Source of the DNA: Lacticaseibacillus yichunensis
Lineage (GTDB): Bacteria > Bacillota > Bacilli > Lactobacillales > Lactobacillaceae
Assembly (NCBI RefSeq): GCF_003946405.1
Contig: NZ_RHOG01000019.1
Location: forward strand, 1-45,305
Length of the DNA stretch: 45,305 bases
Direction of reading: 5' to 3'
In this document: piece by piece, positions 6,268-30,046 of the stretch
Layout of the letters: each line of letters begins with the position of its first letter
Numbering within the stretch: position 1 is the first letter of the stretch
Made by a program: the position numbers and the translations under genes
The notes under the pieces: generated by a model
Database searches by the model: none
What the model was told of the DNA's origin: nothing
What the model saw: the letters and a program-made list of their open reading frames with translations, nothing else

Positions 6268-6428
6268 CCGGGTGTCCTCCGGCCAGAAATGGCTGGAACG
6301 CTCCCAGGCAACTTTGAGCCCGCGAAAGACGCGGTCTCAAAGCTTACCTTCGGTGTTAGCGGCAAGCCGCTAACACCGACGAGGGGGCTGAGCCATTTCT
6401 GGCCTCCAGACACCCTCACATCCAGCAT
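6268..6428 (+). repeat. Structured repeat family A, copy A1 (short form)
   Basis: About 160 bp running from CCGGGTG to CATCCAGC. An outer stem (GGCCAGAAATGGCT / AGCCATTTCTGGCC) encloses a stem CTTTGAG / CTCAAAG (with inner CCGCG/CGCGG) and a perfect apical hairpin GGTGTTAGCGG / CCGCTAACACC. Three other copies lie at 23831, 25585 and 29840. This copy sits between the matrixin gene start and the ABC permease terminator. Confidence 0.85.
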
Positions 6429-6664
6429 TGCTTATTATCTTGACGTCAGAATTGACTCTCTTTTCAGACCAAGTTGCCCATCAATTACCAACTCAGCAAA
6501 CACAACCCAGTCAGGGGAGCATCCGAGAATCTTCAGTTTTTTGAAGAGGACCGCCCCTTTCAAGTGGCTCCCCTGCTCACCAACTCAACTATAACCTGCG
6601 CAGGCCGCCATCCCGCATCGCGTCCGTCCTGCCAGCGCGCCGCGATTTCCCCTCATTTTCCCAT
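6429..6664. other. Non-coding stretch with one long hairpin
   Basis: No credible gene. The only structure seen is CAGGGGAGC (6512-6520) pairing exactly with GCTCCCCTG (6567-6575). Inside it is a small CTTCA/TTGAAG hairpin. There is no T-run after the outer stem, so it is not a standard terminator. Confidence 0.4.
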
Positions 6665-6705
6665 AAAAAAATCGGCACCTCTCCACCAGAAAGGCGCCGA
6701 CTGTT
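6665..6705 (-). terminator. Terminator of the ABC exporter operon
   Basis: On the minus strand CGGCGCCT pairs with AGGTGCCG and is followed by a run of seven T. Confidence 0.85.
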
Positions 6706-6708
6706 TGA

Positions 6709-9321
6709 TTATTCGTTACCCTTGAGCGCTTCGACCATGTCGATGTGCTTGAGGCGGTTGTGGGTGACCCACATGACGATGAAGGTGAAGACCAGCATCA
6801 AGGCGATGGAGGCGATGTAACTGATTGGATGCATGATTGGCGGGAAGATGATCATTGGGGTCGCGGCTTGCCGCAAAATATAGAGTAGCAGGCCCCAGCC
6901 GACTGCGATGCCGGCGATGATGCCCATCAGTGTCATCACAATATTTTCACGGACGATGTACATGGTGACTTCGCCGTCGAAGAAGCCGAGCACTTTGATC
7001 GTCGACAGTTCGCGCATTCGCTCCGAAACGTTGATGTTGGTCAAATTGTACAAGACAACGAAGGACAACACGCCGGACAAAAGCACGAAGATCGCGACCA
7101 CTGGATTGAGGGTCGAGGACATGGTGGTGATGGTGTCCTCCGAGTCAGCGGTGAAACTGGTGCCCAGGGTCTCGCCGTGTTCCAGCAGGTTTTTGGCCAA
7201 GGTGGTGCGCTGGTCGGCGGTTGGCGAATCGAGTTTGACCATCAGGGTGTTCGCGCTGGCCGTTTTGGCGAAGGCCGTTTGATAGGCGGCCTTGCTCATG
7301 TAGGCCATCACGCCGACGTAATTGACGGTGACCGCGGCGACTTTCACGGAAACGGGGTCGCGGCTACCCAGCGTCACACGCACCTTGGCGCCCTTGCCCA
7401 CGCCCAGGTCATCGGCGATCTTTTGGCTGATCACCAGGCCTGTTTTCGGCAGGGTCAACTCGGTCTTGCCCGATCGCAGCGTGACATACTTGCGGAAAGT
7501 CGTCGCGTTTTGCGGGGTGAACAGATTGACATCGTTGACCTGCTGGCCACCTTGCTGGATCTTGATGATGTCGGCGGCCACCGGCGTGTTGCTTTGATAC
7601 GTGCTCGCATCGGCTAGGACCGCCTTCGCCTTGGTCGCCTCGCCCGCTTTTTTCAAGCGGACCGTGGCGTCATAGTGGAAGACCTCGCCGAATTGCTGGG
7701 TGGCGGTGTTCAAGATCGAATCGCGCAGGCCAAATCCGGTCAGCAGCAGTCCCGTCCCGCCCGCAATGCCAATGATCGTCATGATCATGCGGCTCTTGTA
7801 GCGAAAAAGATTGCGGTAGCTGACTTTTTGGTTGAAGGACAACCGCCGCCAGAGAGGGGTGATTCGTTCAAGCAAGATCCGCTTGGCAGTTTTCGGCGCC
7901 TGGGGCCGCATCAATTCGGCCGGTTTTTCCTGCAGTTCGCGAACGGTCACGAATGCCGCGGCGCCCACGGTTGCCAGCAGGGAAAAGCCCAGGGCCATCA
8001 GGAAGTCCACCCAGCTGAACGGAATGCTGGCGATCATTGGGATGTACATGCGATAGAGCCACAAAATAATGCGCGGCAGGCTGAAATTGCCCAGCACCCC
8101 ACCGATCACCGCACCGATCAGCCCGGCCATCAAGGCATAGACCACATAGTTCCGCGCAATCGCGCCTTTACCGTAGCCCAGCGCCTTGAATGTGCCGATC
8201 TGCATCCGCGCCTCTTCCACCATGCGCGTGACCGTGGTGAAGGTGATCAGGGCCGCGATCAGGAAGAAGAAGACGGGAAAAACATTGGCGATCGCCGCGA
8301 TACGGTCCGAGGAATCCCCGTAATCGGAAAAACCGGGGAAATCGTCGCGCGTCTGCCAGGTGTAGGTCGTCTTGGTTTGGGCGACCAGATTCTTGCGCGC
8401 CTGATCCAGTTTCGTCTGACTGGCCGCAAGTTGTTTTTCCTGCGCCGTGATCTCATCGGTGGTGGTGAGCTGGCCGCCACTTTGCACGGCCACCTGAGCT
8501 TTGGCGGCGGTGAGCTGCTTGCTTGCCTTGTCGAGGGTGGCTTGCTGCTTGGTCAGCTCGGCCAGCGGCGTTTTTTGCAATTCGGCGATGCGCGCTGGCC
8601 GCCGGGTGTTGAACGCTTTTTTCAACGCGGTCACTTTCTTATCGACCGCATCCTTGTAGGCGTCCGAATAAGTATTCTCGTGCTGAAGGCCGGCAAAGCG
8701 TACCGTCAACAGCGTTGCCACGTCCAGCGCCATCTGTTTTTCGGGAATGTAGGCGAAAAAGCGGACCGTGCCATCCCCCACATTGGCGGAGCCGCGCGCG
8801 GAATTGTCGATGTACGTTGGCAGATCGCCAAACCCGACGATCTTGTAGGTGCGCTGCTTGAGCCCAGCGCTTTTGGCAAAGGTGAACGACTGGCCGAGCT
8901 TGTAGTCGTATTCGTCCTTTGCGCGTTGATCGAGCACGATCTCGTCGGCATTTTTCGGCAAGCGACCACTTTCAAGCGTCAACTGATTTTGCGTGAGCCC
9001 CTTGCGATAGCCGTACAGAGCGATCGCCATGTCGCTTTTGCCGCCGACCACATACTTGAACCGCATCAGTTCGGCCTTGGCGCCTGCGACCGTTTCGGCG
9101 GCGTCCTTGTCTTTGGCGATGAAGCCGGTCGTGCTCATCAGCTGCACATCCGCGAGGTGGCTGGCCTTGACCGTGTGATCGAGCGAGTCGTTCAGACCCG
9201 GCCCCGCCGCGCGAATGCCGACGAAGCTGAGGCACCCCAGCAAAATGATCAAGATGAGTGCAATGAAGCGTCCCTTGTTGGCGCCGATCTCGCGCCACAT
9301 ATTTTTTGTCATTGGCCGCAT
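6709..9321 (-). CDS. ABC transporter permease, FtsX/MacB type with long coiled coil
   Basis: An 870-residue membrane protein. It has an N-terminal membrane helix (GRFIALILIILLGCLSFVGI), a large extracytoplasmic region, an Ala/Gln/Lys-rich coiled coil (about 245-320), a first FtsX helix bundle (FFFLIAALITFTTVTRM onward), a second extracytoplasmic region and a C-terminal FtsX bundle. This is the layout of large single-gene permeases that pair with a MacB/LolD-like ATPase and move peptides, lipids or antibiotics out of the membrane. The start at 9321 lies 4 nt after the ATPase stop. The neighbouring TetR gene and operator suggest an inducible exporter or defence pump. The substrate is unknown. 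Confidence 0.88.
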   Translation of the reverse strand: MRPMTKNMWREIGANKGRFIALILIILLGCLSFVGIRAAGPGLNDSLDHTVKASHLADVQLMSTTGFIAKDKDAAETVAGAKAELMRFKYVVGGKSDMAIALYGYRKGLTQNQLTLESGRLPKNADEIVLDQRAKDEYDYKLGQSFTFAKSAGLKQRTYKIVGFGDLPTYIDNSARGSANVGDGTVRFFAYIPEKQMALDVATLLTVRFAGLQHENTYSDAYKDAVDKKVTALKKAFNTRRPARIAELQKTPLAELTKQQATLDKASKQLTAAKAQVAVQSGGQLTTTDEITAQEKQLAASQTKLDQARKNLVAQTKTTYTWQTRDDFPGFSDYGDSSDRIAAIANVFPVFFFLIAALITFTTVTRMVEEARMQIGTFKALGYGKGAIARNYVVYALMAGLIGAVIGGVLGNFSLPRIILWLYRMYIPMIASIPFSWVDFLMALGFSLLATVGAAAFVTVRELQEKPAELMRPQAPKTAKRILLERITPLWRRLSFNQKVSYRNLFRYKSRMIMTIIGIAGGTGLLLTGFGLRDSILNTATQQFGEVFHYDATVRLKKAGEATKAKAVLADASTYQSNTPVAADIIKIQQGGQQVNDVNLFTPQNATTFRKYVTLRSGKTELTLPKTGLVISQKIADDLGVGKGAKVRVTLGSRDPVSVKVAAVTVNYVGVMAYMSKAAYQTAFAKTASANTLMVKLDSPTADQRTTLAKNLLEHGETLGTSFTADSEDTITTMSSTLNPVVAIFVLLSGVLSFVVLYNLTNINVSERMRELSTIKVLGFFDGEVTMYIVRENIVMTLMGIIAGIAVGWGLLLYILRQAATPMIIFPPIMHPISYIASIALMLVFTFIVMWVTHNRLKHIDMVEALKGNE

Positions 9322-9325
9322 GCGC

Positions 9326-10027
9326 TCACCACTCGATCTCTTCAACCGGCGTCGGCTGCGGATTGTCCACGACCGAGCGCACCTTGGCGTCGTTGATGCG
9401 AATCACCCGATCCGCCATTTTCGCCAGCGCGGCGTTATGCGTGATCACCAGAACGGTCTTATTGTCTTTGCGGCTGGCGTCCTGCAGCAGCTGCAGGACC
9501 TGCTTGCCGGTCTCGTAATCCAGCGCCCCGGTCGGCTCGTCGCACAAGAGGAGCTTGGGATTTTTCGCCAAGGCGCGGGCGATGGCCACACGCTGCTGCT
9601 CCCCGCCGGATAATTGCGAGGGAAAATTGTTGAGGCGCGCGCCCAGCCCCACCTTCCGCAGGGTCTCCTCGGCGTCTAGGGCGTCCTTCACGATGGAGTT
9701 CGCCATTTCGACATTTTCCTTGGTCGTCAGATTCGGAATCAGATTGTAAAACTGAAACACGAAGCCGACATCGTTGCGGCGAAACGCGGTCAGCTGGCGC
9801 TCGGAAAAAGTGGCGATGTCGATACCATCAATGATCACCTGGCCGGAGCTGGGGCTGTCCATTCCGCCCAAAATGTTGAGCACGGTGGATTTGCCGGCGC
9901 CGCTGGGGCCCAGGATCACCGTCAGCTGCCCCTGCTCGCAATCAAAGGAAATGTCGTTGTTGGCGATGATCTCTGTTTCGCCCATTTGATACCGTTTAAA
10001 TTCGTTACGGACCTCGATATAAGCCAC
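9326..10027 (-). CDS. ABC transporter ATP-binding protein, MacB/LolD type
   Basis: A 233-residue ATPase that powers the permease encoded 4 nt downstream. Walker A is GPSGAGKST (40-48), the signature is LSGGEQQR, Walker B with the D-loop is [12 protein letters not shown], and the H-loop is VITHN. The GTG at 10027 is preferred over the ATG at 10042 because GGAGG lies 8 nt before the GTG and overlaps the ATG. A minus-strand promoter and a TetR-like palindrome (10047-10061) lie directly upstream, so the operon is probably repressed by the divergent TetR protein. Confidence 0.92.
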
Positions 10028-10046
10028 GCTTTTTGCCTCCATGAAC

Positions 10047-10102
10047 TAGACACACTGTCTAACTGATATAATGATTATGACGCAACTGGCCCTCAGTTCT
10101 CA
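10047..10102 (-). promoter_or_regulatory. Promoter and palindromic TetR operator of the ABC exporter
   Basis: TAGACA-CAC-TGTCTA (10047-10061) is a perfect palindrome just inside the expected transcript start. Upstream on the minus strand are TTGAGA (10097-10102) and CATAAT (10073-10078), 18 bp apart. A half site, TAGACAG, lies nearer the tetR gene (about 10132). Repression by the divergent TetR protein is inferred. Confidence 0.6.
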
Positions 10103-10175
10103 ACCAGCAGATCTGGCCAGCATGTTATGAAATAGACAGTTCACCCAATTTTTGTTGGAAAGAAGGAACGACGCC

Positions 10176-10733
10176 ATGGTCGGCACGAAAAATAATCGGC
10201 GCACCGCCTACACCAAGGCCAAATTGCAGGAGGCATTACTTTCCCTGCTGGCAGACAAACCGCTCGAGAAGATCACGGTCTCGGCGCTGTGCGCGCAGGC
10301 CGATGTCAATCGCGGCACCTTTTACGCGCATTATAGCGACCCCGCCGCGCTGTTCAAGGCGATGGAAACGGAACTGGCCGCCCGCATCGCCCCGATGCTC
10401 GGCCCCGCGCAAGGCGACTTGCGCGAATGGCTGCCTCCGATACTCGAACTGCTTCGCCAACAGCGCGCCGCCACGGTCTTGATCATTCGCAACCTCGAGG
10501 AAAGTCCGGTGCTCCAGCTGATCCTCGACCCGATTCGCGAGCAGACCATGGCGACCTATCGCGCCCGCTTCAATGAAAGTGATCCGCAGAAGCTGACTTA
10601 CTACTTCCAATTTTTCCTCAACGGCTCTGTGCGCGTCATCACGTCTTGGCTCAAAAATGGTGCGGTGGAATCCCCGGCCGCCATCGCCGACATTCTCGCC
10701 AATATCACCCAACAAGTGCTGGCGCAAGACTGA
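10176..10733 (+). CDS. TetR/AcrR family transcriptional regulator
   Basis: A 185-residue repressor. The N-terminal helix-turn-helix (about 8-55) shows the usual TITVSALCAQADVNRGTFY-like core (here KITVSALCAQADVNRGTFYA) followed by HYSDPAALF. The C-terminal all-helical domain carries the ligand pocket and the dimer interface. The ATG at 10176 follows AAGGA at good spacing; the longer TTG-started frame adds residues without a binding site. It is divergent from the ABC exporter operon, and the TAGACA...TGTCTA palindrome between them is the likely operator. The ligand is unknown. Confidence 0.9.
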   Translation: MVGTKNNRRTAYTKAKLQEALLSLLADKPLEKITVSALCAQADVNRGTFYAHYSDPAALFKAMETELAARIAPMLGPAQGDLREWLPPILELLRQQRAATVLIIRNLEESPVLQLILDPIREQTMATYRARFNESDPQKLTYYFQFFLNGSVRVITSWLKNGAVESPAAIADILANITQQVLAQD

Positions 10734-10746
10734 ACGCTCGCATAAT

Positions 10747-10767
10747 TGAGAGCGCTTTCGTTATAAT
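10747..10767 (+). promoter_or_regulatory. Promoter region with cre-like site upstream of the flavin reductase gene
   Basis: TGAGAGCGCTTTCG (10747-10760) differs at two positions from the catabolite-responsive element consensus TGWAARCGYTWWCA. It directly precedes a consensus TATAAT (10762-10767). No good -35 is present at 17 bp. CcpA control is a suggestion only. Confidence 0.35.
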
Positions 10768-10794
10768 AAACGTAACAAGATAGGAGGAATTCTG

Positions 10795-11340
10795 ATGGCT
10801 CATATCGGTATCATTGTCGGCAGTTTGCGCCACGCCAGCTTCACGAAGAAAGTGGCGCAGACCTTTGCTAAGCTCGCCCCGGCGGATCTCGACCCCGTAC
10901 TCATTCCGATCGGCGACCTGCCGCTGTACAACGAGGACGCGGAAGTGCCAACCCCGCCGGCCAGCTGGACCGCGTTTCGTGAGGCCGTTGCGGAAGTGGA
11001 CGGCGTCTGGTTTTTCACGCCCGAATACAATCGCGGCCTGCCTGCAGCTCTGAAGAACGCGCTTGATGTCGCGTCTCGGCCGTATGGGAAAAATGTGTGG
11101 GCGGGCAAGCCTGCCTTGGTGGTCAGCGTCTCCCCTGGTGCGATCGGCGGTTTTGGGGCAAACATGCAGCTGCGGCAGAGCCTGACCTTCCTCGACATGC
11201 CGGTCTTGCAGCAGCCAGAAGCCTACATCGGTGGCATCTCCAAACTGTTGACCGAAGACGGCATTGTCCAGGGCACCCAGGACTATTTTGCCCTGATCAT
11301 CGAGAAGTATGCGGACTTCTATCGCCAGTTGAAGAAATAA
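10795..11340 (+). CDS. NAD(P)H-dependent FMN reductase (flavodoxin-like fold)
   Basis: A 181-residue cytoplasmic flavoprotein of the NADPH-dependent FMN/quinone reductase family. The phosphate-binding loop GSLRHASFTKK near the N-terminus and the flavin-contact motif TPEYNRGLPAALKNALD are characteristic, as is the GAIGGFGANMQLRQ segment. The length is normal. GATAGGAGGAATTCTG precedes the ATG. It forms its own transcription unit, closed by a strong terminator. The electron acceptor (quinone, azo compound, chromate or free flavin) cannot be assigned. Confidence 0.9.
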   Translation: MAHIGIIVGSLRHASFTKKVAQTFAKLAPADLDPVLIPIGDLPLYNEDAEVPTPPASWTAFREAVAEVDGVWFFTPEYNRGLPAALKNALDVASRPYGKNVWAGKPALVVSVSPGAIGGFGANMQLRQSLTFLDMPVLQQPEAYIGGISKLLTEDGIVQGTQDYFALIIEKYADFYRQLKK

Positions 11341-11359
11341 GTCGTCGCAAGAATTCCGG

Positions 11360-11398
11360 GCGCCTGCCACTGCGAAAATTGGTGGCGGGCGCTTTTTT
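11360..11398 (+). terminator. Terminator of the flavin reductase gene
   Basis: GCGCCTGCCAC pairs with GGTGGCGGGCGC and is followed by TTTTTT. Confidence 0.9.
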
Positions 11399-11405
11399 GC
11401 ATCTG

Positions 11406-11681
11406 CCCTCCCGCGAGCCTTCACACCCTTTCATAGTTGGGTTCCGCGGGGCAGGTCTGAGGCATCTAACAGGGCCCGGCACTCGGGGCTAAGTGCAGCC
11501 CCAAGCACCAGGCCCTGTTAGCCGCTCAGACCTAAACGCCCCGCTCCACACCCTTTCATAGTTGGGTTCCGGTGCGCAGGGGTGGGACATTTAGCTGACC
11601 TAGGCACTCGGTGGCAAGGAGCGCCACCAAGCGCCTAGGCCAAGCTAACTGCCCACCCCTAAACGCGCACCTCCACACCCT
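11406..11681 (-). repeat. Repeat family B, two tandem full copies (B1, B2) plus a partial unit
   Basis: Units at 11435-11554 and 11560-11681 run from AGTTGGGTTCCG to CCACACCCT and are joined by TTTCAT. A partial end (CGCGAGCCTTCACACCCT) precedes B1. Each unit folds into one long hairpin; in B2 the arms include GGGGTGGG / CCCACCCC and CCTAGGC / GCCTAGG. B1 has a quite different stem sequence (GGGCAGGTCTGAG, CAGGGCC / GGCCCTG) but the same layout. No gene is seen in this interval. Confidence 0.85.
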
Positions 11682-11723
11682 TTTTGCCTAAAAAATGGTA
11701 TGGTTGTCTCAGGAGATGAGCTT

Positions 11724-12053
11724 ATGTCATTACAAACAATTGACCTCACTGCGCTGGCGCTTCATCCGCACCAGATCGGTAGCAAGACGTTCAGCCGCAA
11801 GCTGGGGATCACTTTGCCGCTTGCCGAATTCACCATGGCCGCTGGGGAAAGCATCACAGAGGAAACGTCGGCTCTCTCGCGGTTGTTTCTCGTGCTGGAC
11901 GGCACGCTACTCATCGATGTCGGGCAGGAGACCACCACAGTTGCGGCCGGCCACTTGGCGTCTGTCCCCGCCGACGTGCCGCACCGCCTGCATGCTGAGA
12001 CAGATTGCCGGTATCTACAACTCGAAAGTCCCGCTCAGAAAGGAAATGCCTAA
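11724..12053 (+). CDS. Cupin-domain protein
   Basis: A 109-residue small beta-barrel protein. The region LPLAEFTMAAGESITEETS and the second cupin motif (VAAGHLASVPADVPHRLHAE) mark a single conserved cupin domain. The metal-binding histidines of motif 1 are largely replaced by Glu/Thr, so metal binding is uncertain. AGGAG precedes the ATG at 11724, which is preferred over the more distal TTG and GTG starts. The stop overlaps the start of a second cupin gene (TAATG), so the two are coupled and may form a heteromer. Function is unknown; small cupins often bind sugars or small effectors. Confidence 0.75.
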   Translation: MSLQTIDLTALALHPHQIGSKTFSRKLGITLPLAEFTMAAGESITEETSALSRLFLVLDGTLLIDVGQETTTVAAGHLASVPADVPHRLHAETDCRYLQLESPAQKGNA

Positions 12054-12397
12054 TGCCATTTATTGATAAGATCGACCCCGCCACCACGTTGTCGCTCACC
12101 TCACTGATTCCGTTGGATGACGGCCAGGTCAACAGCCGCACCTTGGTTCAACGCGACGACATGAGCATGACCCTTTTTTCCGTCGCCACCGATGAAGAGA
12201 TCGGCGGGCATACCGCGGAAGGCGATGCGCTTGTCAACATCCTCAGCGGAGAAGCCGAAGTGACCATTCGCAAAAAGGCCCACCGCGTGCCGGCCGGCCA
12301 ATCGATTCTGATTCCTGCCGGCGCCCGCCATTCGCTGTATGCGCTGGAGGGATTCCAAATGCTGCTGATCGTGGTCAAACCACAAGCAGAAAACTAG
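12053..12397 (+). CDS. Cupin-domain protein (second of a coupled pair)
   Basis: A 114-residue single-domain cupin. Motif 1 reads GGHTAEGDALVNILSGEAEV and motif 2 PAGQSILIPAGARHSLYAL, so two His residues and the usual Gly/Pro turns are kept. The start ATG overlaps the upstream cupin stop, with AAAGGAAA as ribosome binding site. The longer frame would read back through the first cupin gene. Both genes share the cupin fold but are clearly diverged from each other. Role unknown; an enzyme, an isomerase or a binding protein are all possible. Confidence 0.8.
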   Translation: MPFIDKIDPATTLSLTSLIPLDDGQVNSRTLVQRDDMSMTLFSVATDEEIGGHTAEGDALVNILSGEAEVTIRKKAHRVPAGQSILIPAGARHSLYALEGFQMLLIVVKPQAEN

Positions 12398-12410
12398 TCG
12401 CCACACGCAG

Positions 12411-12447
12411 ACCGCCCAGTCGCTTCACACATATGACTGGGCGGTTT
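12411..12447 (+). terminator. Terminator of the cupin operon
   Basis: ACCGCCCAGTC pairs exactly with GACTGGGCGGT; the T-run is short. Confidence 0.65.
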
Positions 12448-12572
12448 GATATGGCGCCGAAACGATTGATATAACAAACTTGGCCTACCGCAACCGACAA
12501 CTTTTGCGCCGGATGTGCGTGAGGCCCTGTTTGCGTTTTCGCCGCGTGCTACAGTTAGCGTGAACACATCGC

Positions 12573-12638
12573 GGAAACATTTCGAAAGCTTTCCGGAAAG
12601 CTTTTTACAAACATTCTGGAATCATTTTGGAAAACCCA
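12573..12638 (+). promoter_or_regulatory. Helically phased 11-bp repeats upstream of the GH28-like gene
   Basis: Three consecutive 11-bp units, GGAAACATTTC, GAAAGCTTTCC and GGAAAGCTTTT (12573-12605), are each roughly palindromic (GAAA-N-TTTC). The same period continues more weakly (TACAAACATTC, TGGAATCATTT, TGGAAAACCCA) up to the ribosome binding site. This looks like a multi-site operator or a bent-DNA tract. A possible extended -10 (TGCTACAGT, about 12547-12555) lies upstream. Confidence 0.45.
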
Positions 12639-12650
12639 CAGGAGGCCATC

Positions 12651-13844: not shown

Positions 13845-13870
13845 CACCCCAAACTGAAGCAATTTCGAAG

Positions 13871-13909
13871 GCCGGCCACTCACGCAAAATGCGAGTCGCC
13901 GGCTTTATT
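13871..13909 (+). terminator. Terminator of the GH28-like gene
   Basis: GCCGGC(C)ACTCACGC and GCGAGT(C)GCCGGC form the stem around AAAAT, followed by TTTATT. Confidence 0.7.
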
Positions 13910-13947
13910 GACGGAAACAGCCTGGGATAAAGATTTGTCCCAATAAC

Positions 13948-14068: not shown

Positions 14069-14070
14069 AA

Positions 14071-14103
14071 AAAAAGAGCCCCACACATCGAAATGTGCGG
14101 GGC
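14071..14103 (-). terminator. Terminator of the cold-shock gene
   Basis: GCCCCGCACAT and ATGTGTGGGGC flank TTCG, with a run of T on the minus strand. Confidence 0.9.
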
Positions 14104-14121
14104 CCCACTCACTGTAAAGAA

Positions 14122-14322
14122 TTACAGCTTGTTAACGTTGGCAGCCTGAGGGCCGCGATCGCTTTGCTCTACGTCGAAGGTTACAGCCTGACCTTCGTCA
14201 AGCGTCTTGTAACCGTCGCCCTGGATTGCGGAGAAATGTACGAATACATCTTTGCCGTCTTCACCAGTGATGAAGCCATAACCTTTATCAGCGTTGAACC
14301 ACTTAACAGTACCCTGTTGCAT
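14122..14322 (-). CDS. csp: Cold-shock protein, CspA family
   Basis: A 66-residue single OB-fold RNA chaperone that binds single-stranded RNA and DNA. RNP1 (KGYGFIT) and RNP2 (VFVHF) are intact, and the start [10 protein letters not shown] is typical of Gram-positive Csp proteins. AAGGAG precedes the ATG. The predicted transcript begins near 14389, giving a leader of about 65 nt. Csp leaders usually carry temperature-responsive structure, but none was verified here. It is monocistronic with its own terminator. The paralogue letter (A, B, C) cannot be assigned. Confidence 0.97.
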
Positions 14323-14395
14323 ATTGAATGAATCTCCTTCATTGAAAACTAAAGTGACAAATCAACCGGTAATCGCTGAAAGGAAATCCATCATG

Positions 14396-14424
14396 CTTAT
14401 ACACAACTTGTTTCAGTTCATCAA
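14396..14424 (-). promoter_or_regulatory. Cold-shock gene promoter
   Basis: On the minus strand TTGATG (14419-14424), 17 bp, then TATAAG (14396-14401). Confidence 0.75.
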
Positions 14425-14528
14425 TTACTATGGCTAGTTTAACACAGCCCCGGCGAGAAACCTAATTATTTTGCTTGGCCAAGGCGGTAAAGTGCTACGA
14501 TAAAAGAAATTTCAAAGGAAGTGCCGCC

Positions 14529-15020: not shown

Positions 15021-15021
15021 A

Positions 15022-15180: not shown

Positions 15181-15181
15181 C

Positions 15182-20682: not shown

Positions 20683-20749
20683 CATTGCCTCCTGAGAGAT
20701 TTCTTCCTTGACTGTACGAAGACAAGAGGTGCGTGTCAAGCAAAAGGAT

Positions 20750-21130
20750 AGGGTGTGGAGGCTCGCGTTTAGGGGTGGGCAGTTAGCTTGGCCTGGGTGC
20801 TTGGTGGCGCTTCTTGCCACCGAGTGCCTAGGTCAGCTAAATGTCCCACCCCTGCGAGCCGGAACCCAACTGGATAAGGGTGTGGAGGCTCGCGCTTAGG
20901 GGTTGGCAGTTAGCTTGGCCTAGGTGCTTGGTGGCGGTCCTTGCCACCGAGTGCCTAGGTCAGCTAAATGTCCCACCCCTGCGAGCCGGAACCCAACTAG
21001 AGGGTGTGGAGGCTCGCGGGATGGTCGAGTAGCTAGCTTGGCTCGGGTGCTTGAGGCGTCCTTAGCCTCGAGTACACGAGACAGCTAGATACCTCGACCA
21101 TGCGAGCCGGAACCCAACTGAGGGTGTGGA
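20750..21130 (+). repeat. Repeat family B, three tandem full copies (B6-B8) and the start of a fourth
   Basis: Units at 20750-20871, 20877-20998 and 21001-21119 run from AGGGTGTGGAGGCTCGC to GCGAGCCGGAACCCAACT; a fourth begins at 21121 and stops after about 10 bp. B6 and B7 are near-identical. B8 keeps the outer arms but replaces the middle stem AGGGGTGG / CCACCCCT with ATGGTCGAG / CTCGACCAT, a paired change. The 500-bp gap between rpiA and ldh holds only these units and a terminator. Confidence 0.9.
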
Positions 21131-22250: not shown

Positions 22251-22256
22251 CGGTAG

Positions 22257-22871
22257 TCACGCTTCAGCTGTGCCGAACCGTTTTTGAAGGAGCGTCAACG
22301 TCTCGGTGTAGATCAGGATAAAAATCAGCCCCAGCAAAAACGACTTGAGGCCAAACGAGATCGCGCCGATGCCAAGGACGATCAAGTTGATCAGCCGCAG
22401 TCCAAGACCCACGGAGAATTTTGGCTGATGCTTGTTGATGACGAGCGCAAACACATCCAGCCCCGCCGTTGAGGAGTGATGGGCGATGCACAGGTAGTAC
22501 CCAACGCCCACCCCGAGGCCAGCGATCGGCAGCCCCAGCCAAACCGGCAACGTGTGCGTCGGGGCAAGCGCCTGCGCCAGCGTGAACCAGCCCATGTAGG
22601 CGAGGCTCGAGACGATCGAGTTCATGAACGTCCGCACGCCCAAAAAGATCAGTGCCGCCAGCAGACACGCCACCGTGATCGCGTTGGTCCAAAACGTGAC
22701 CGATAACGGCGTCAACTTGCCCATGATCATCCCCGAAGCGGTGACCCCGCCGGAAATGATATTTAATTTGACCATGATCCACGAATACGCAAATGCGGAC
22801 ACGGCATTGCCGATGATCACCCACACCACATCCATCACGGCTTCATGAACCGTGACCGTTTCCTCTTTCAC
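22257..22871 (-). CDS. YitT/YczE-like integral membrane protein
   Basis: A 204-residue protein with about five or six hydrophobic helices. The segments SWIMVKLNIISGGVTASGMI and AHHSSTAGLDVFALVIN resemble the N-terminal membrane domain of the YitT/YczE families, but the DUF2179 tail of YitT is absent. The GTG at 22871 was chosen because GAGGA lies about 7 nt upstream and the codon falls 10 nt after the phosphoesterase stop; the longer frame overlaps that gene. Cotranscription is likely. Transport function and substrate are unknown. Confidence 0.75.
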   Translation of the reverse strand: MKEETVTVHEAVMDVVWVIIGNAVSAFAYSWIMVKLNIISGGVTASGMIMGKLTPLSVTFWTNAITVACLLAALIFLGVRTFMNSIVSSLAYMGWFTLAQALAPTHTLPVWLGLPIAGLGVGVGYYLCIAHHSSTAGLDVFALVINKHQPKFSVGLGLRLINLIVLGIGAISFGLKSFLLGLIFILIYTETLTLLQKRFGTAEA

Positions 22872-22881
22872 CCTTTTGTCC

Positions 22882-23715
22882 TCACAATTCGTAATAATCC
22901 TTGACCAGCGCCCGATAATTCCCGGCCGCGTTGACCTGCGCCAGCCGCTCGAGATCATGCGTCACCGTTTTGCCCGTGTGCCGCAGATACGCGTATAGAT
23001 CCAGATATGGCAGGCCCCGCGTTTTGGCCAAGGCAAGCTCGGCCTCAATGTCGTAGGCGATCTTGCGAAAATCAACATCGACCAGCCCACTCGGTGAGAT
23101 CGTCAGCATCAAATAATGCGCGCGCTGATCCGCAAACAACTTCGGCCACGGGCTGTACGGCTGCCCCGCCGCCCCGGGATTCAGCACCAGTTGACCCTTC
23201 CGCGACGTGCGCATCAGTTGTTGGTGCGTGTGTCCATAGATCGCGATATCCTGGTCGCCGGCAAACATCCTATCAAAATCCGCCTGATGCCCCGCCGGAT
23301 ACAACATTCGCCCTTCTGTGGAAAAGCGTGAATTATGCGTGAGCCCGATCGTCACGCCATTCACCGTTTCCGTCAGCGCATACGGATGATTGCGCATCAA
23401 TAGCAATTGCGTCGGTGTTAATTTTTGCAAGACATACGCCGATAACGCCGCGATATAAACGCTGCCCGGATTATCAAGATCGATATGCTTATCCGCCATC
23501 GCGAAAAGCGCCTGTTCCCAGTTGCCATTCAGCCAGACAGTCGGCGCCACCGTTTCCACCAGCGCGTACAAGTCCCCAGCGCCTGGCCCCGGCAGCAGCA
23601 GGTCCCCCAGAAACCAATAATCGGTCGCCTGGTGCGCCATCGCATCCGCCAACACGGCCTTCGTCGCCGTCACGTTCCCATGCGTATCTGAAAATACTGC
23701 GATTCGCCGCTCCAT
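22882..23715 (-). CDS. Calcineurin-like metallophosphoesterase
   Basis: A 277-residue two-metal phosphoesterase. Metal ligands appear in order: FSDTHGN (D10, H12), LGDLLLPG (D38), LNGNWEQ (N65, a variant of GNHE), LTHNSRF and GHTHQQL. This resembles YfcE/serine-threonine phosphatase-like proteins, with an extra C-terminal helical part (about 220-277). GGAGG precedes the ATG at 23715. It is followed 10 nt later by the YitT-like gene. The substrate could be a phosphoprotein, nucleotide or phosphodiester; not assignable. Confidence 0.88.
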   Translation of the reverse strand: MERRIAVFSDTHGNVTATKAVLADAMAHQATDYWFLGDLLLPGPGAGDLYALVETVAPTVWLNGNWEQALFAMADKHIDLDNPGSVYIAALSAYVLQKLTPTQLLLMRNHPYALTETVNGVTIGLTHNSRFSTEGRMLYPAGHQADFDRMFAGDQDIAIYGHTHQQLMRTSRKGQLVLNPGAAGQPYSPWPKLFADQRAHYLMLTISPSGLVDVDFRKIAYDIEAELALAKTRGLPYLDLYAYLRHTGKTVTHDLERLAQVNAAGNYRALVKDYYEL

Positions 23716-23830
23716 CTCGTGCCTCCAAACGTCCAATAGTCTATCACCCACCATGCCAGAAAAGAAGGCCGCATGCAAGCAAGTTGGCGGCATCGGCCGT
23801 GTGCCAATTTTTTTGGGTTTCTTGTAACCC

Positions 23831-23990
23831 CCGGGTGACTCCGGCCAGAAATAGCTGGAACGCTCCCAAGTAACTTTATGCCCGCAAAAATCGCGGTCGT
23901 AAAGCTTACTTTCGTTGTAAGCGGCACAGCCGCTAACAACGACGAGGGGGCTGAGCCATTTCTGGCCGCCGCCACCCTAATATCCAGCGT
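23831..23990 (+). repeat. Structured repeat family A, copy A2 (short form)
   Basis: Same layout and orientation as A1. Stem arms differ in paired fashion: AAGTAA / TTACTT instead of AGGCAA / TTACCT, CTTTATG / CGTAAAG instead of CTTTGAG / CTCAAAG, and GTTG / CAAC in the apical hairpin instead of GGTG / CACC. It lies between divergent genes. The remaining bases up to 24171 show no clear feature. Confidence 0.85.
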
Positions 23991-24171
23991 TATAACGAGG
24001 CCATTCGTATCCGTTCAGTCGCCACAAAAAGTCCTCATTGGACTGGCGCATTGCCATTTAGGATATGGCGGCTGATAGGGCTTGCCGATGGGAACTGAGT
24101 GTCCATCTAATCACCCGTCAATGGATAGAAATGATCTGTATGGACCAGCTCATCGGCCTGTTGTCTCGCAA

Positions 24172-24180
24172 TGATATAAT
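24172..24180 (+). promoter_or_regulatory. Extended -10 promoter placed for a leaderless transcript
   Basis: TGATATAAT (24172-24180) is a consensus extended -10. The MFS gene ATG (24188) begins exactly 7 nt after it, where transcription should start. No convincing -35 and no Shine-Dalgarno sequence is present. Confidence 0.5.
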
Positions 24181-24187
24181 AGACGTT

Positions 24188-25384
24188 ATGCAAAAGAATC
24201 AAATGAGCCTACAACTAATTTTCAGTCCATTTATCTCACAACTCGGCAGCGCCATCTATCTACTTGGCCTCAACTGGCTGATCGTGCACGCGACCGGCGA
24301 CACCAAATTGATCGGCCTCATCACGGGATTAGGCGGCATCTTCTTTGTCGTCGGCGATCTCGTGGCGGCCACCCTGGTCGATCACCATGACCGAAAAATG
24401 GTGATGGTGGGCGCCGATGCGCTCTCAGCGGCCGCCTGTTTGATCGGCGCCTGGCTGATCGACCCCGCCCATCCCCAGACGTGGCTGTTGATCATGATCA
24501 CCGCCGTTTTGGACCTCCTGCTTTCGATCAGCTATCCTGCCGCCAAAGCGATCACGCCAGACATCATCGCGCCGACCGCCCTGCAGCGCTTCAATGCCAT
24601 CGCCAATTCCGTGTTCAGCCTCGCGAGCATCGTGGCCCCGCTGGTCGGCGGCTTGTTGCTGGCGAATCAGGCATTAGACTTCAAAGGCTTTTTGATTATC
24701 AACGCCTTGTCCTTCATCGTCGCGGGATTACTTTCTTGGAGTATCCGCGCCCCACGATTTCAGCCCGCTAACGGAAACAGTAACATGCTTCGCGACACCA
24801 TCACCGGCTTACGATTTGTGCTGGGCGAGGCCCATTTGCGCCTGATGATGATTGCACTGGGCGCCTTCAATTTCTGTGCAGCCGGATTTCTCCTCACCGC
24901 CCCGTTCATCGCAGACACCGTTTTCCAAGGACGCGCCACAGCCTACAGCGAATTCCTGATGATGTCGGCGATTGGCGGCATGATCGGTGGCTCACTCCTC
25001 GCCCTCCAGCGCCGCGCCGTCTCGGCCGTTCAAGTCTATGGCGAACAAGTGCTGTACGGCCTGCTGTTGATCATCCTCGGCCTCTGGCTCCAGCGTCCCT
25101 TTTGGCTGATCTGCGCCCTGATCAACGGCTTCGTCAACGGCCGCATGTTCGCCAGCCTCGCCACCCTGATGCAGGCCGCCACCCCGCGCGACATGCTCGG
25201 CCGCGTGTTCGGCCTGATCTTCCTGGTCTACGACGGCGTCCAGCCCCTCGGCAACTTCTTCTTCGGCGCATTTATCCACAGCTGGGGCGCCCACACCTAC
25301 CTCGTGCTGGGCGCGCTGCTGGTCATCGGCTTCATCGTCCTCATCACCCTGACCAGGCGCCTACCAGAAGTGGCGGAAAAATAG
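24188..25384 (+). CDS. MFS transporter
   Basis: A 398-residue major facilitator protein with about 12 hydrophobic helices. It belongs to the group of drug/macrolide-type exporters with a VDHHDRKMVMVGADALS loop between helices 2 and 3 and the SYPAAKAITPDIIAPTALQRFN helix 5 region, as in MefA/tetracycline-like families. The ATG at 24188 is preferred: hydrophobic sequence begins right after it, and codons upstream read through a -10 box. There is no ribosome binding site. Substrate unknown; drug or metabolite efflux is likely. Confidence 0.85.
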   Translation: MQKNQMSLQLIFSPFISQLGSAIYLLGLNWLIVHATGDTKLIGLITGLGGIFFVVGDLVAATLVDHHDRKMVMVGADALSAAACLIGAWLIDPAHPQTWLLIMITAVLDLLLSISYPAAKAITPDIIAPTALQRFNAIANSVFSLASIVAPLVGGLLLANQALDFKGFLIINALSFIVAGLLSWSIRAPRFQPANGNSNMLRDTITGLRFVLGEAHLRLMMIALGAFNFCAAGFLLTAPFIADTVFQGRATAYSEFLMMSAIGGMIGGSLLALQRRAVSAVQVYGEQVLYGLLLIILGLWLQRPFWLICALINGFVNGRMFASLATLMQAATPRDMLGRVFGLIFLVYDGVQPLGNFFFGAFIHSWGAHTYLVLGALLVIGFIVLITLTRRLPEVAEK

Positions 25385-25584
25385 GAAGGCAAGGCTTCGG
25401 CAAAAGATGGCGAAAAGACCAATAATCAGCGGACAAAATCTGAGCGTACAGACAAAAGCTAACTAGAGCAAGAATAATGGCATAGACACAACAAGTGTGA
25501 CAATCTAGCCGGTCAAATAAATAGTGGAATGAAACGAAATTTTTACCATTTCCACAGGTCCACATTTCGATGTGTTCATTGAAT
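25385..25584. other. Intergenic DNA without recognised gene
   Basis: A mostly AT-richer stretch. GTGGAA...TTTCCAC (about 25523-25555) and CACATTTCGATGTG (25561-25574) are small inverted repeats without T-runs. Nothing else is seen. Confidence 0.4.
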
Positions 25585-25792
25585 GCTGGATATGAGGGTA
25601 GGCTCCGGCCAGAAACGGCTCACTTCGCATGTCTTGGCGTAAGGCATAAATGCCTAACGCCAAGAGCAAGCCCCCTCGTCGGTGTTAGCGGCTTGCCGCT
25701 TACACCGAAGGCAAGCTTTGAGACCGCGCACTTTGCGGGCTCAAAGTTGCCTGGGAGCGTTCCAGCCGATTTCTGGCCGGAGCTCACCCGGA
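25585..25792 (-). repeat. Structured repeat family A, copy A3 (long form)
   Basis: 208 bp, inverted relative to A1/A2. The outer stem is extended (GGCTCCGGCCAGAAA / TTTCTGGCCGGAGC). It has the shared stems plus an additional hairpin CTTGGCGTAAGGCAT / ATGCCTAACGCCAAG absent from the short copies. Confidence 0.87.
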
Positions 25793-25824
25793 CGCTCAAA
25801 CCATCTAAAGAAGTCGAATAAATC

Positions 25825-25867
25825 AAAAACGCACCCATTCCAATCTGCAGAATGAGGTGCGTTTTGA
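25825..25867 (-). terminator. Terminator of metE-metF
   Basis: AAAACGCACC(T)CATTCTGC and GATTGGAATG(G)GTGCGTTTTT-type arms form a bidirectional terminator. Confidence 0.85.
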
Positions 25868-25878
25868 TAGCTATTAGT

Positions 25879-26751
25879 TTATGCCCGCACCAACGTTTTC
25901 GTCGCCTGGACGATGCGGCTTGCGACAGTCGGGTTGTCCATCGTGTAAATGTGGATCCCGTCGACGCCATGCACCAGCAAGTCGACGATCTGGTCGATTG
26001 CATACGCGATTCCGGCATCGCGCATCGCAACCGGATTGTCCGCATACCGCGCCATCATGCTGGTGAATTTTTTCGGCAACGTCACCCCGCTCATTGTGGC
26101 CATCCGCTCGATCTGATGCTGATTGAGGACGGGCATGATGCCCGCCTCGATTGGCACTGTGATGCCCGCTTCCCGGCACTGCGCGACAAACTCATAGAAA
26201 CACTCATTGTCGAAAAACAGCTGGGAGATCAGCTGACTGCAGCCGGCATCGACCTTCTGCTTGAGAAAATGGATATCAGTCGCCAGATCAGGCGACTCCG
26301 GATGACACTCCGGGTAACACGCGCCGATCACATTGAAATCCCCCACCGCATGAATGTGGCGGACCAAGTCACTGGCATGGGGAAAATCGTCGCTGAGCCG
26401 GCCGTTCTTTGGGATGTCTCCGCGCAGTGCCAGAATATTTTCCACCCCAGCCGCCTTGAATTCACCCAGTAGCGTATCCACCGCCTGGGCATCCAGTTGC
26501 GCCGCCGGTAAATGCGCAACACTTTCGATTCCGTAACGTTTTTTGATCAACGAAGCCAACTCAAGCGTCCCATTTTGCCGGCGCGAGCCACCAGCGCCAA
26601 AGGTCACCGAGACAAAATCGGGGCCAAGCGCACTGATTGCATCCATCGTGCCGGCGATCCGGTCAAAATCCTCATCCGGCGTTTTGCGGCGCGGCGGGAA
26701 TAATTCAAATGAGATGACCTGATGTTGCTCAAACAGTCGGTTGACTTTCAT
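25879..26751 (-). CDS. metF: 5,10-methylenetetrahydrofolate reductase
   Basis: A 290-residue flavoprotein that makes 5-methyltetrahydrofolate, the methyl donor for methionine synthase. The start [15 protein letters not shown] holds the catalytic Glu region. [20 protein letters not shown] and [15 protein letters not shown] are family motifs for FAD and folate binding. The ATG lies inside the 3' end of metE (23-nt overlap), with AAGGAA as ribosome binding site, so translation is coupled. It is controlled with metE by the upstream T-box. Confidence 0.96.
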
Positions 26752-29011
26752 GGGCGAGTTCCTTCCGTACTTGCTTCGTGGCCGCCACCAGATTCTTCAA
26801 GCTGGCCAAGACTTCTGGCTCCTCGCGCGTCTTCAGCCCGCAATCCGGATTGATCCAGACTTGTTCCTTTGGCAGACGCGCCAAGATCTTATGAATGATG
26901 GTGACGATCTCGTCTTCAGATGGCACCCGTGGCGAGTGAATATCGTAAACGCCAGGGCCGACTTCCGTTTCAAAATGCGTGTCGTGCAAAATATCCAGTA
27001 GCGTCAGATCCGCCCGAGCAGCCTCAAACGAGATCACATCGGCATCCAAGGCATCGATTGCCTCGATGATATCGCCGAATTCCGAGTAGCACATATGGGT
27101 GTGGATCTGCGTGGTCGGCTGGACCTTTGAGGAAACTAGCCGGAATGCCGGCACCGCCCAGTCGAGATACTTGCTGAACCAGTCTTTTTTGCGCAGTGGC
27201 AGATTTTCGCGCAGCGCGGGCTCGTCGATCTGAATGATCTTGATCCCGTGTTTTTCCAGATCAAGGGTCTCATCGGCCAGCGCCAGCGCGATCTGTTCGG
27301 TGGACAGCTTCGGCGACACGTCCTCGCGTGGGAACGACCAGTTGAGAATCGTCACCGGCCCCGTCAGCATCCCCTTCACCGGCTTGTCGGTCAGACTCTG
27401 TGCGTACACGGTCTCCGCCACCGTGATCGGATGCGTGCGGGCCACGTCGCCCCAGATGATCGGCGGCTTGACCCCGCGCGTGCCATAGCTTTGGACCCAG
27501 CCGTTTGCGGTGAAGCGGAAGCCCTCGAGCTCATCGCCAAAGTATTCGACCATGTCGTTACGCTCGAATTCGCCGTGCACGAGCACATCCAGCCCAAGCT
27601 CTTCCTGAATGTCGATCCAGCGCTTGGTCTCCGCGCGGTTGAACGCCGTGTACTCTTCCTCGGAGATCTCGCCTTTGCGGAACTTCGCCCGGTTTTTGCG
27701 CACCGCCGGGGTCTGCGGGAACGAGCCGATCGTTGTGGTTGGCAAAACAGGCAAGTGGAACTCTTTTGCCTGGAGGGCCAGCCGCTCTTTGCGTGCCGGT
27801 TGCCGCTTGTAGTCTTCTGGCTTGAGTGCCGCGATCTTCGCATTGATCGCCGCATTTTCCTGATAGCGCGGCTTGGAAAACAGCGTTTCGTTGGCTTGCA
27901 GCGCAGCGTTATCGCCATTGCGGGCCGCATCCAGATCAGCCAGCTCAGTCAATTTTTCCTCGGCGAACGCGAGGTACTGGAGTTCTTCCGGCGCGATCTG
28001 ATCCTCGTTGCGCGTGGTGTATGGCACATGCAAGAGCGAGCAAGATGTCGACAGCACCAGCTGCGGCGCCACCTGATCGAGCTGCGCCAGCGTGGCCAGC
28101 GCCTGATCGTAATTCGTCCGCCAAATGTTTTTCCCATTCACGATGCCGGCAAACAGCACCTTGTCTTCTGGAAAACCAGCAGAGGTGACCAGATCCAGAT
28201 TGGCCTTACCTTCGATGAAATCAAGGCCGAGCCCATCAAATGGCAGCGACGCAAGCACGCTCAGCGCATCCGTCACATCGCCAAAATACGTCTGCGCCAA
28301 GATCTTCGCGCCGTGCTTGTGCGAAAGCAACGGCTGATACAGGCTCGTGAACAACGCCTTGTCCGCGATCGTCTGATCATAGACAAGCGCCGGTTCATCC
28401 AGCTGGATCCACTCCGCGCCAAGCGACGCAAGCTTGGCGATGATCTCGCTGTACGCATCGATCAAGGCCGGCACAAAGTCTTCGGCCTGCTTGCCATCCA
28501 AAAAGCGGCTCAACTGAAGCAGCGTGTACGAGCCCACGAGCGCTGGCCGGGCATTGAGGCCCTGTTCCTTCGCATCCTTGAACTGCGCAAACAGCTGCCA
28601 GTCGCCGACCTTGATCTGCGTATCCGCATCAAATTCGGGCACCAGATAATGATAATTCGTGTTGAACCACTTCTTCATCGACAGCGCCTTCACATCCCCG
28701 GCCGGCCCCTGATAGCCGCGGGCCAGTGCAAAGTATTCCGCAAGCGGCGACAAGCCCAACGCCTGGTAGCGCTTCGGCACGATATTCAGCAAAAACGCAG
28801 TGTCCAGCGTGGTGTCGAAGAAGGAAAAATCGCCCGTTGGAATCTGATTCAACCCAGCGGCCTTCAGCGTCGCCCAATTTTTGTCGCGCAGGCCCTTTGC
28901 CGTCTTCAACAACTCGTCTTCAGTCAATTGATGCTTGAAAAATTTCTGGGTGGCAAACTTCAACTCGCGGTGCTCGCCGATGCGTGGGTAGCCGATGATC
29001 GTTTTTGTCAT
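26729..29011 (-). CDS. metE: Cobalamin-independent methionine synthase
   Basis: A 760-residue zinc enzyme transferring a methyl group from 5-methyltetrahydrofolate (triglutamate) to homocysteine. The N-terminal barrel starts [17 protein letters not shown]. The C-terminal catalytic barrel starts near [11 protein letters not shown] and contains the zinc ligands in [10 protein letters not shown] (His, Cys), the Glu of the following strand, and NPDCGLKTR (Cys). The length is complete. The ATG at 29011 has AAAGGAG upstream and follows a T-box leader. metF overlaps its 3' end; together they form a methionine-responsive operon. Confidence 0.97.
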
Positions 29012-29040
29012 AATGTGTCTTCTCCTTTGCGCGATAAAAA

Positions 29041-29326
29041 GAAAAAGCTGTCCTCGCCGCATACAAATGTATGCAGCAAGGACAGCTCAGCTGTGGTACC
29101 ACCTTGGTTTACAACACGCTTGCACGTGTTGCCTCTACCGGTCCGGCCAATTGGCGAGACCTGCACGCTGTAATGGGCGTCCCCATGACCGGCTTGCCGA
29201 AGCTCGCCGATCAAGCGCTGACCAAGACCATCTTCATGCGCACCTTTTTGCTGCCTTGCACCATCTGCAGCTCGCTAAGAAAAAGGCCACGCACTACTCA
29301 TCTTTTTAATCGCTTTATCATGTTGA
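29041..29326 (-). ncRNA. T-box leader of metE-metF with Met specifier
   Basis: On the minus strand the T-box sequence AAGGTGGTACCAC (29093-29105) is followed by a terminator (29041-29088; AGCTGTCCT...AGGACAGCT and TTTTT) that competes with the antiterminator. Upstream, Stem I has an AGTA element, the distal GATGGTGCAAGG loop, and GAA-G-ATG-G on its 3' side. By the GAA-N-specifier layout the specifier is ATG (29229-29231), methionine. Uncharged tRNA-Met would let transcription reach metE. Confidence 0.88.
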
Positions 29327-29331
29327 GGCCC

Positions 29332-29360
29332 ATCTTACTCACTAACCTGCGGGCTGTCAA
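29332..29360 (-). promoter_or_regulatory. Promoter of the metE T-box leader
   Basis: TTGACA (29355-29360), 17 bp, then TAAGAT (29332-29337) on the minus strand; start predicted near 29325. Confidence 0.8.
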
Positions 29361-29434
29361 GCGTTTGTTTTTTAGTGTAGTGGTCAGTGAAAAGATTCGG
29401 GTGTGCTCCAGCACTCTGTTGACTCACCAAGACG

Positions 29435-29590
29435 CTTAGCAAATCGACAGGTAGTTCTTGAGGGCCTAATAATGATTGGCATTTTCTCCGAAAAGTCAGT
29501 AGAACCCTGACGATTTGCTGAGCCTTTTGCGTAACCCCTCACCGAAATAACTTCACGTGTGAAGGTAGCCGCGTCCTCGAAGATGAGGCC
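29435..29590. other. Unassigned structured intergenic segment
   Basis: CTTAGCAAATCG (29435-29446) pairs with CGATTTGCTGAG (29511-29522) over all 12 positions, one of them T-G. The stem continues inward with CAGG/CCTG and TTCT/AGAA around a 40-nt loop. It is followed by CTTCACGTGTGAAG (29551-29564) and CCTC/GAGG (29575-29588). No coding frame or promoter is clear. The rest of 29361-29839 shows nothing recognised. Confidence 0.4.
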
Positions 29591-29839
29591 CGACGGAAAG
29601 AGGCGATGAACCAGGCAGGTTTAGTAGAAGTGATTGCAGTCAGCCGCAGATCGACGCTAGAATTATTCGCAAGCCAAAACACGACGCGGCCATTAGACAA
29701 TCACAGATTTCAAGGCTTGCATCACGGGCAGTCACGCACAGAAAGACCAGCCATCCGCCGTAGCCTCAATGCTCAATCCTTGTCCTCATTACCAAGCGTA
29801 TCGGCTTTGTTAGCCGCCTCTTCCCCAAAATTTTTTGTT

Positions 29840-30046
29840 GCTGGATGTGAGGGTGGTCTGCCGCCAGAAATGGCTCGCTTCGCATGTCTTGGCGTAAGGC
29901 ATAAATGCCTAACGCCAAGAGCAAGCCCCCTCGTCGGTGTTAGCGGCTGTGCCGCTTACACCGAAAGTGAGCTTTAAGACCGCGGTCTGTGCGGGCTTAA
30001 AGTCACTTGGGAGCGTTCCAGCCATTTCCGGCGGCAGCCCACCCGG
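29840..30046 (-). repeat. Structured repeat family A, copy A4 (long form)
   Basis: Same layout as A3. Its outer stem is CTGCCGCC / GGCGGCAG where A3 has CTCCGGCC / GGCCGGAG, and its inner stems are AAGTGA / TCACTT and CTTTAAG / CTTAAAG. It lies between the two divergent Met T-box promoters. Confidence 0.87.

Follow-up and report, generated by a model that had tools for sequence, protein, structure and literature searches.

The 45,305-nucleotide stretch of Lacticaseibacillus yichunensis analysed here (contig NZ_RHOG01000019.1, hereafter the window) contains four copies, A1 to A4, of a structured repeat that is dispersed among Lactobacillaceae. On balance we favour the interpretation that this family is composed of non-autonomous mobile DNA elements, built like REPINs as inverted doublets of folded modules and now mostly decaying. 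REPINs are presented in the excerpted text of PMC3116915 as inverted doublets of repetitive extragenic palindromic (REP) sequences linked to RAYT transposases. Features observed in the family are a covarying predicted fold with fixed loops, an arrangement in facing doublets, losses through deletion and, for the whole set, strand symmetry. Its ancestral unit was probably a pair of facing modules separated by a non-coding spacer, and this doublet would have been the mobile unit. Single copies would largely be deletion survivors, as was observed at three sites of the same genome. A putative trans-acting enzyme, by now absent or rare, probably recognised the folded strand, and selection would have kept fold and mismatches while the sequence drifted, because the enzyme would read the folded single strand. 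At present, the copies would mostly be inherited in place, swapping hairpin variants and decaying.

Module anatomy and copies in the window

The module is a near-palindrome of about 150-213 bp, whose single strand is predicted to fold into a long stem capped by two hairpins. In this prediction, the long stem is followed by an internal loop GGAAC/TG, then by another, short stem and finally by the junction that bears the two hairpins. Hairpin 1 displayed a C.T mismatch and hairpin 2 often an A.A mismatch, which was not found in A1. Two alternatives were encountered for the left loop in the window's own genome (GGAAC or a longer GGCGACCG...AGAGCG form) and two for the right side (an extra hairpin being present or absent), and all four combinations occurred. 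Below, G000 designates the window's own genome, G013 that of a sister species and other G numbers further genomes, whereas L numbers designate loci. The longer left-loop form recurred in G020 and G017. The features in the window are as follows.

6268..6418, plus strand: copy A1, short form with loop GGAAC and without the extra hairpin (147.7 bits)
6295..6299, plus strand: unpaired conserved GGAAC of the A1 internal loop, partner strand TG at 6389-6390 (read from the sequence)
6312..6342, plus strand: hairpin 1 of A1 with the C.T mismatch, C 6319 and T 6335 (read from the sequence)
23830..23981, plus strand: copy A2, short form (150.9 bits)
25593..25791, minus strand: copy A3, long form with the extra hairpin (154.2 bits)
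29394..29415, plus strand: what is left of the plus module once paired with A4, outer left arm joined to right tail with the core deleted (from the alignment with G013)
29848..30046, minus strand: copy A4, long form, minus half of the presumed ancestral inverted doublet (155.3 bits)

Limits and scores of the copies were taken from a covariance model, R1, built from 43 copies of two species, these four included. They confirmed the places given by a previous sequence-only reading of the window, with scores of 147.7-155.3 bits. Folding was compared with dinucleotide shuffles for two of the four copies, A1 (z = -9.2) and A3 (z = -9.8), and none of 200 shuffles was as good in either case. About 47 additional bases, including one more hairpin, distinguished A3 and A4 from A1 and A2. 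The outer arm of A1 holds a symmetrical unpaired block, and its GGAAC loop was also present in copies of other genera. A2 and A3 are convergent, with an MFS transporter gene between them (MFS_1 in 24065-25384).

Covariation and conserved mismatches

The sequence-only reading had quoted stems with paired changes between copies. These stems are present, with two corrections: CTTTATG/CGTAAAG of A2 includes one T.G pair and is not fully compensated, and A1, omitted for the first stem, displayed AGGCAA/TTACCT with a C.A mismatch. Among the 43 copies of the two species, changes on both sides were recorded in 26 of 61 pairs (159 such cells versus 40.6 +/- 7.8 after shuffling). The structure paired in 94.3% of cells, compared with 35-46% for structures slid by 1-3 columns.

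Since these 43 copies are close relatives, covariation was retested in other loci, with copies chosen irrespective of pairing. The first core detector demanded pairing and was therefore not used here (168 of its 185 cores served in the strand comparison below). Instead, 99 pattern matches were retained after dropping those that were at locus ends, contained N or were identical, and 88 of them carried the 3' CTGAG anchor. Of the remaining 11, three look like chance matches; the other eight comprise anchor variants, long forms and a deletion. In the 88 copies, Watson-Crick pairs amounted to 900/1232 in the outer stem (shuffled mean 463, maximum 534) and to 494/528 in the inner stem (359 when shuffled). 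Likewise, the C.T mismatch was kept in 77 of the 79 copies with a recognisable partner, the other nine having none. Hairpin 2 displayed 57 A.A single mismatches in 80 segments, 60 of which contained at least one single mismatch of any kind.

The persistence of the C.T mismatch disfavours plain arm-to-arm correction, which would erase it. Drifting stems around a constant mismatch rather point to something that reads the folded strand. Once other genera were added, the earlier proposal of a constraint on the fold, as opposed to mere copying, was thus strongly supported by both covariation and the kept mismatch.

Facing doublets

Neighbouring copies displayed a pronounced orientation bias. Among 33 distinct pairs lying within 1.5 kb, 29 were convergent, four tandem (two of them in one array) and none divergent, an excess with a chance of about 5e-14 if orientations were independent. 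Pairs with a motif fixing both strands were convergent in 16 cases and tandem in one. This count was derived from covariance-model matches in 78 + 78 + 39 loci after removal of overlapping opposite-strand shadows; the chance matches L137 and L192 were excluded, L201-L224 were not included, and pairs were detectable only within reach of the stored flank sequence. A looser count of 52 tandem, 19 convergent and 15 divergent pairs was set aside, since many of the cores accepted by its detector were false ones within coding sequence.

Spacers ranged from 42 to 584 bp, with one of 1022 bp, and the five that were compared were unlike one another. All eight short-spaced doublets examined in Levilactobacillus namurensis paired a GGAAC module with a module of a second type, in which GTGAC/TG replaces GGAAC/TG (L127, L136, L161, L167, L178, L188 and L198). 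No transposase was recognised by eye in the frames between facing copies of L164, L092 and L073 that could denote an autonomous version, and the two L164 frames tested had no match in Pfam. A different arrangement was recorded in G003 (L086, L054), where a tandem array with a period of roughly 170-190 bp is closed by one inverted copy.

Decay and turnover at fixed sites

Comparison with the sister species revealed how doublets are lost. In G013, the ortholog of A4 (L348, 8046-8243 minus) is still preceded, at a distance of 442 bp, by a plus copy (7405-7603 of the same locus); of the latter, the window retains no more than the outer left arm and the right tail (29394-29415). At a second site, L040, a G013 doublet corresponds to a 41-bp hairpin in G000; at a third, L034, G000 has one half of a plus module, facing a complete minus copy. 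One-arm matches in this genome were a collapsed hairpin (C67:4450) and a half module facing a whole copy (C7:42987). Copies with the core gone were also found in G020. A2 lies within a 377-bp stretch (23790-24166) that corresponds to 21 bp in G013 and is not a clean insertion.

When 38 copies of G000 were placed against G013, 20 had an element at the same site and three had none (one being a deletion chimera), the other 15 being uncompared. At the 20 shared sites, 51 pairs had changed on both sides and were still Watson-Crick, 18 had become G.U, eight had turned into Watson-Crick pairs by a one-side change, 53 were broken on one side and five on both, and 196 fell in gaps. These counts are rough because many breaks reflect different module forms aligned together. 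In the double changes, a common hairpin variant had often been replaced by a different common one, a pattern that points to exchange among copies. Such exchange can account for covariation inside the hairpin, and less easily for that in the outer arms. Paired changes do indicate selection on the fold, as originally proposed, with the reservation that part of the signal stems from exchange of whole hairpin variants, which the sequence-only reading had not considered.

Turnover was also apparent in the casei group, where one site is occupied by a plus copy in G005 and by a minus one in G028, while G006 retains a remnant there. Another site harboured an element in G005 and a terminator-like hairpin in G028 and G006.

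Family size and distribution

The draft genome of G000 (2.56 Mb) contains 39 places and two partial ones according to BLAST, so that the family occupies at least 39 places; the covariance model added others that BLAST had missed, e.g. C67:86861-87012. Some of its 74 matches in this genome are shadows of these copies on the opposite strand. The search of the genome and its relatives that had been suggested together with the first description uncovered the family in many lactobacilli. Within the genus, it was found in 19 of 30 genomes at E 0.01, in some of them weakly, with 0 to 74 model matches per genome, and was not found in the other 11. At E 0.0001, 48 of 251 genomes and 10 of 40 genera of Lactobacillaceae displayed it. 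All of the 17 genomes with matches among 345 of the order also belonged to Lactobacillaceae. Family- and order-level counts are lower bounds since these searches were filtered more strictly than that of the genus.

A pattern scan of named genomes yielded at least 104 stretches, and the genera among the matches listed were Lacticaseibacillus, Levilactobacillus, Schleiferilactobacillus, Companilactobacillus, Lactiplantibacillus and Limosilactobacillus. At least three pattern matches, in Chloroflexi (L137) and Arthrobacter (L192) and at L215, look like chance matches, their 3' half being missing. Altogether, 211 distinct module sequences were gathered. The G+C content of the copies was 57-67% in G000 and 38-66% in the named loci. 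Four plasmid carriers were recorded with one casei-group query and none with one L. brevis query; no near-identical plasmid lacking the copy was found among the matches listed. The casei-group query had no match in phages, and one viral contig was matched.

This patchy occurrence bears on the idea that the repeats are chromosome-architecture or transcription-end sites, i.e. palindromes retained for a host function and spread by gene conversion. Retention at 20 of the 23 testable sites, exchange of variants at fixed sites, the casei-group site where an ordinary terminator occupies the place of the element, and a mild excess between convergent genes (see below) are all consistent with it. Yet a host function agrees poorly with the 11 genus genomes where the family was not found, with the range of 0 to 74 matches and with the deletions, and we regard it as very unlikely.

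Strand symmetry and gene orientation

If a transcript were selected, its sense strand would be expected to be richer in G.U pairs. Over 168 copies, however, the two strands were alike in their share of G.U pairs (3.7% and 3.5%), and the plus strand was the more stable in 72. T-box leaders, the RNA control, displayed 15.3% and 8.7%, with the sense strand more stable in 28 of 28 (30 leaders had been collected, and two without the GGTGG motif were dropped). Likewise, the copies did not keep a fixed strand and position relative to genes. In gaps of at least 150 bp, 29 lay on the same strand as the flanking genes and 31 on the opposite one, while 23 were between convergent and 15 between divergent genes. 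The mild excess between convergent genes (23 of 98 gaps versus 26 of 168) was not significant (P = 0.14). These counts relied on a naive gene caller, according to which 19 of 167 copies lie within a frame.

A functional RNA, either a dispersed small RNA or a regulator embedded in mRNAs and selected as a transcript, was one of the options raised at the outset. It would fit the strong covariation, the conserved unpaired nucleotides and the junction fold, as well as the terminator-like hairpins with T runs after many casei-group copies, the plus-strand lean of G000 and G013 and the four plasmid records (two of them from a single site), where element and upstream gene share one strand. Rare G.U pairs, equal on both strands, and random orientation to genes nevertheless disfavour it, as do the dozens of copies without a likely partner gene, the facing-pair organisation and the absence of an Rfam family at threshold. 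We consider it distinctly improbable.

Extremities and search for a mobiliser

Extremities were clearest in two sets. The longest unit of G020 measures about 330 bp and displays 22-bp imperfect inverted ends, several copies being without the right end; one copy, at L229, is flanked by a 9-bp repeat, CTTTTTGCT. No such repeat was seen by eye in the other G020 copies examined, and the 69-base left end had no match in plasmid records, the sole database queried with it. Casei-group arms end sharply in inverted GTGCCAAA/TTTGGCAC.

Target-site duplications gave no consistent signal in the four copy sets. A slight excess of flank matches was obtained for G000/G013 (5.05 versus 4.76 shuffled, maximum 4.98), from a loose set of 216 that includes duplicates and false cores. 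No excess beyond shuffles was observed for the casei group (4.85 versus 4.74), namurensis (4.81 versus 4.69) and G020 (5.08 versus 4.67 +/- 0.27). A listing of 52 G000/G013 flanks contained no repeat longer than 8 bases and none at both edges.

A classical miniature inverted-repeat transposable element (MITE) would consist of the ends of an insertion sequence with a DDE transposase, bounded by terminal inverted repeats and target-site duplications, its fold being a by-product of the long inverted repeats. The inverted ends and 9-bp repeat in G020, the sharp casei-group arm ends and the slight flank excess of G000/G013 agree with this earlier suggestion. In such a by-product fold, however, neither the C.T mismatch nor the asymmetry of the internal loop would persist from genus to genus; the 9-bp repeat is confined to L229 among the G020 copies inspected, several of which have no right end, and the flank excess comes from one loose set out of four. 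A classical MITE is therefore unsupported and appears unlikely.

Terminator-like hairpins that are related to one another (e.g. GCGAACATACTC...GAGTATGTTCGC with T runs) were observed about 60-100 bp past the right arm in many of 17 casei-group copies (L109-L119, L075, L076 and L083). They may be part of a longer unit with TGAGYCATAATT-like ends.

As to enzymes, a Y1 transposase (PF01797) occurred in 13 of the 30 genus genomes and was missing from G005 (35 model matches), G017 (35) and G020 (12). The Y1 transposase, reverse transcriptase and Y2 transposase were each rejected as mobilisers, being absent from several copy-rich genomes. A single Y2 (IS91-type) transposase match was recorded in the 30 genomes (G017:C1:2957154-2957666). 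No likely partner gene recurred beside copies in 148 loci. A more specific proposal is a mobile element with two large folded single-strand DNA ends, whose shape (the loop together with the fixed mismatches) would be read by a recombinase of no known type; as facing doublets it would have reached about ten genera, in many of which the enzyme was left behind. We put it forward tentatively, as a possibility that we doubt.

Comparison with known systems

The family works most like REPINs, yet is not a member since the Y1 transposase is absent from three copy-rich genomes (G005, G017 and G020). The excerpted text of PMC3116915 describes REPINs as high-copy, non-coding and extragenic, with inverted doublets as the unit and singlets as remnants, and with a predicted hairpin in single-stranded DNA for which compensatory changes are called common; all of this has its counterpart here, including the excess of inverted doublets. 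The modules differ by their size of about 150-210 bp and their three-way junction, REP sequences being a few tens of bases long, and by doublet spacers of 42-584 bp (one of 1022 bp) in one family spanning many genera. RAYT did not accompany the copies throughout the genomes bearing them. GTAG/CGTC-tagged REP units measure 20-40 bp in the excerpt of PMC3733652, compared with 150-213 bp for the module.

BOX elements of Streptococcus pneumoniae are likewise modular, tightly folded and interspersed, with paired ends, and are likely non-autonomous and dormant according to the excerpt of PMC3049150. Contrary to them, the present family forms facing doublets, and R1 had no match outside Lactobacillaceae among the 345 order genomes, the comparison being made without running BOX models. 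MITEs, as described in the same excerpt, share small size, lack of coding capacity, extensive base pairing and multiple copies; copies of G000 differ in not being AT-rich, and no consistent target-site duplication was observed. Among the options initially offered (MITE, REP/BOX-like element or RNA), the REP/BOX-like one fits best, specifically as a REPIN-like inverted doublet; a functional RNA is disfavoured and a classical MITE unsupported.

Integron attC sites and the ends of IS200/IS605 elements are recombination sites folded from a single strand, with fixed unpaired bases, that are recognised by shape. The hairpins described here resemble them by their fixed unpaired bases and differ in that the Y1 transposase does not track the copies.

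The earlier statement that no known class fits held for Rfam, where no family reached the gathering threshold over any copy (window and 22 loci with copies). No description of this repeat family was found in the literature searched, which left out most subscription journals, so that an older name may exist.

Several observations weigh against the interpretation as decaying mobile doublets. No movement was caught, 20 of the 23 testable sites of G000 being also filled in G013, and sites not shared between genomes were no clean insertions. Most copies are single. No enzyme tracks the copies, the search having covered Y1 transposase, reverse transcriptase and Y2 transposase and not tyrosine or serine recombinases or DDE transposases; only one protein cluster, an ABC transporter, was next to many copies (18 of 148 loci), which we take as chance. 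The strand comparison relies on a single RNA family as control, and six tRNA controls were reversed, with 5.5% G.U pairs on the sense and 10.5% on the antisense strand. Moreover, G000 and G013 taken together lean towards the plus strand, with 4.2% G.U pairs versus 1.6% and 32 of 37 copies more stable.

Other features of the window

A4 and the remnant of its partner sit between two T-box leaders. The first (29075-29319, minus strand) is below threshold, with 84.5 bits for a cut-off of 93, and lies upstream of metE/metF (26729-29062 and 25879-26751). The second, above threshold (30134-30366), faces it and precedes an ABC transporter gene. A cspA thermoregulator was found at 14073-14432 (minus strand, 91.6 bits). 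Segments 11406-11681 and 20744-21130 matched the same G013 places (L255, L268) at about 70-80%, as did part of L039, and probably represent another dispersed repeat or a recurrent gene.

Implications

Repeats of this kind in food lactobacilli leave local deletions behind and can confuse surveys of structured RNAs. Strong covariation alone is no proof of an RNA, and the strand-symmetry test helps to separate DNA from RNA. If the family does consist of mobile folded doublets, selection that acts on a fold of the DNA itself would be traceable across a whole bacterial family, with about two hundred natural variants available, and these would offer a direct way to seek the enzyme that reads the folded strand.

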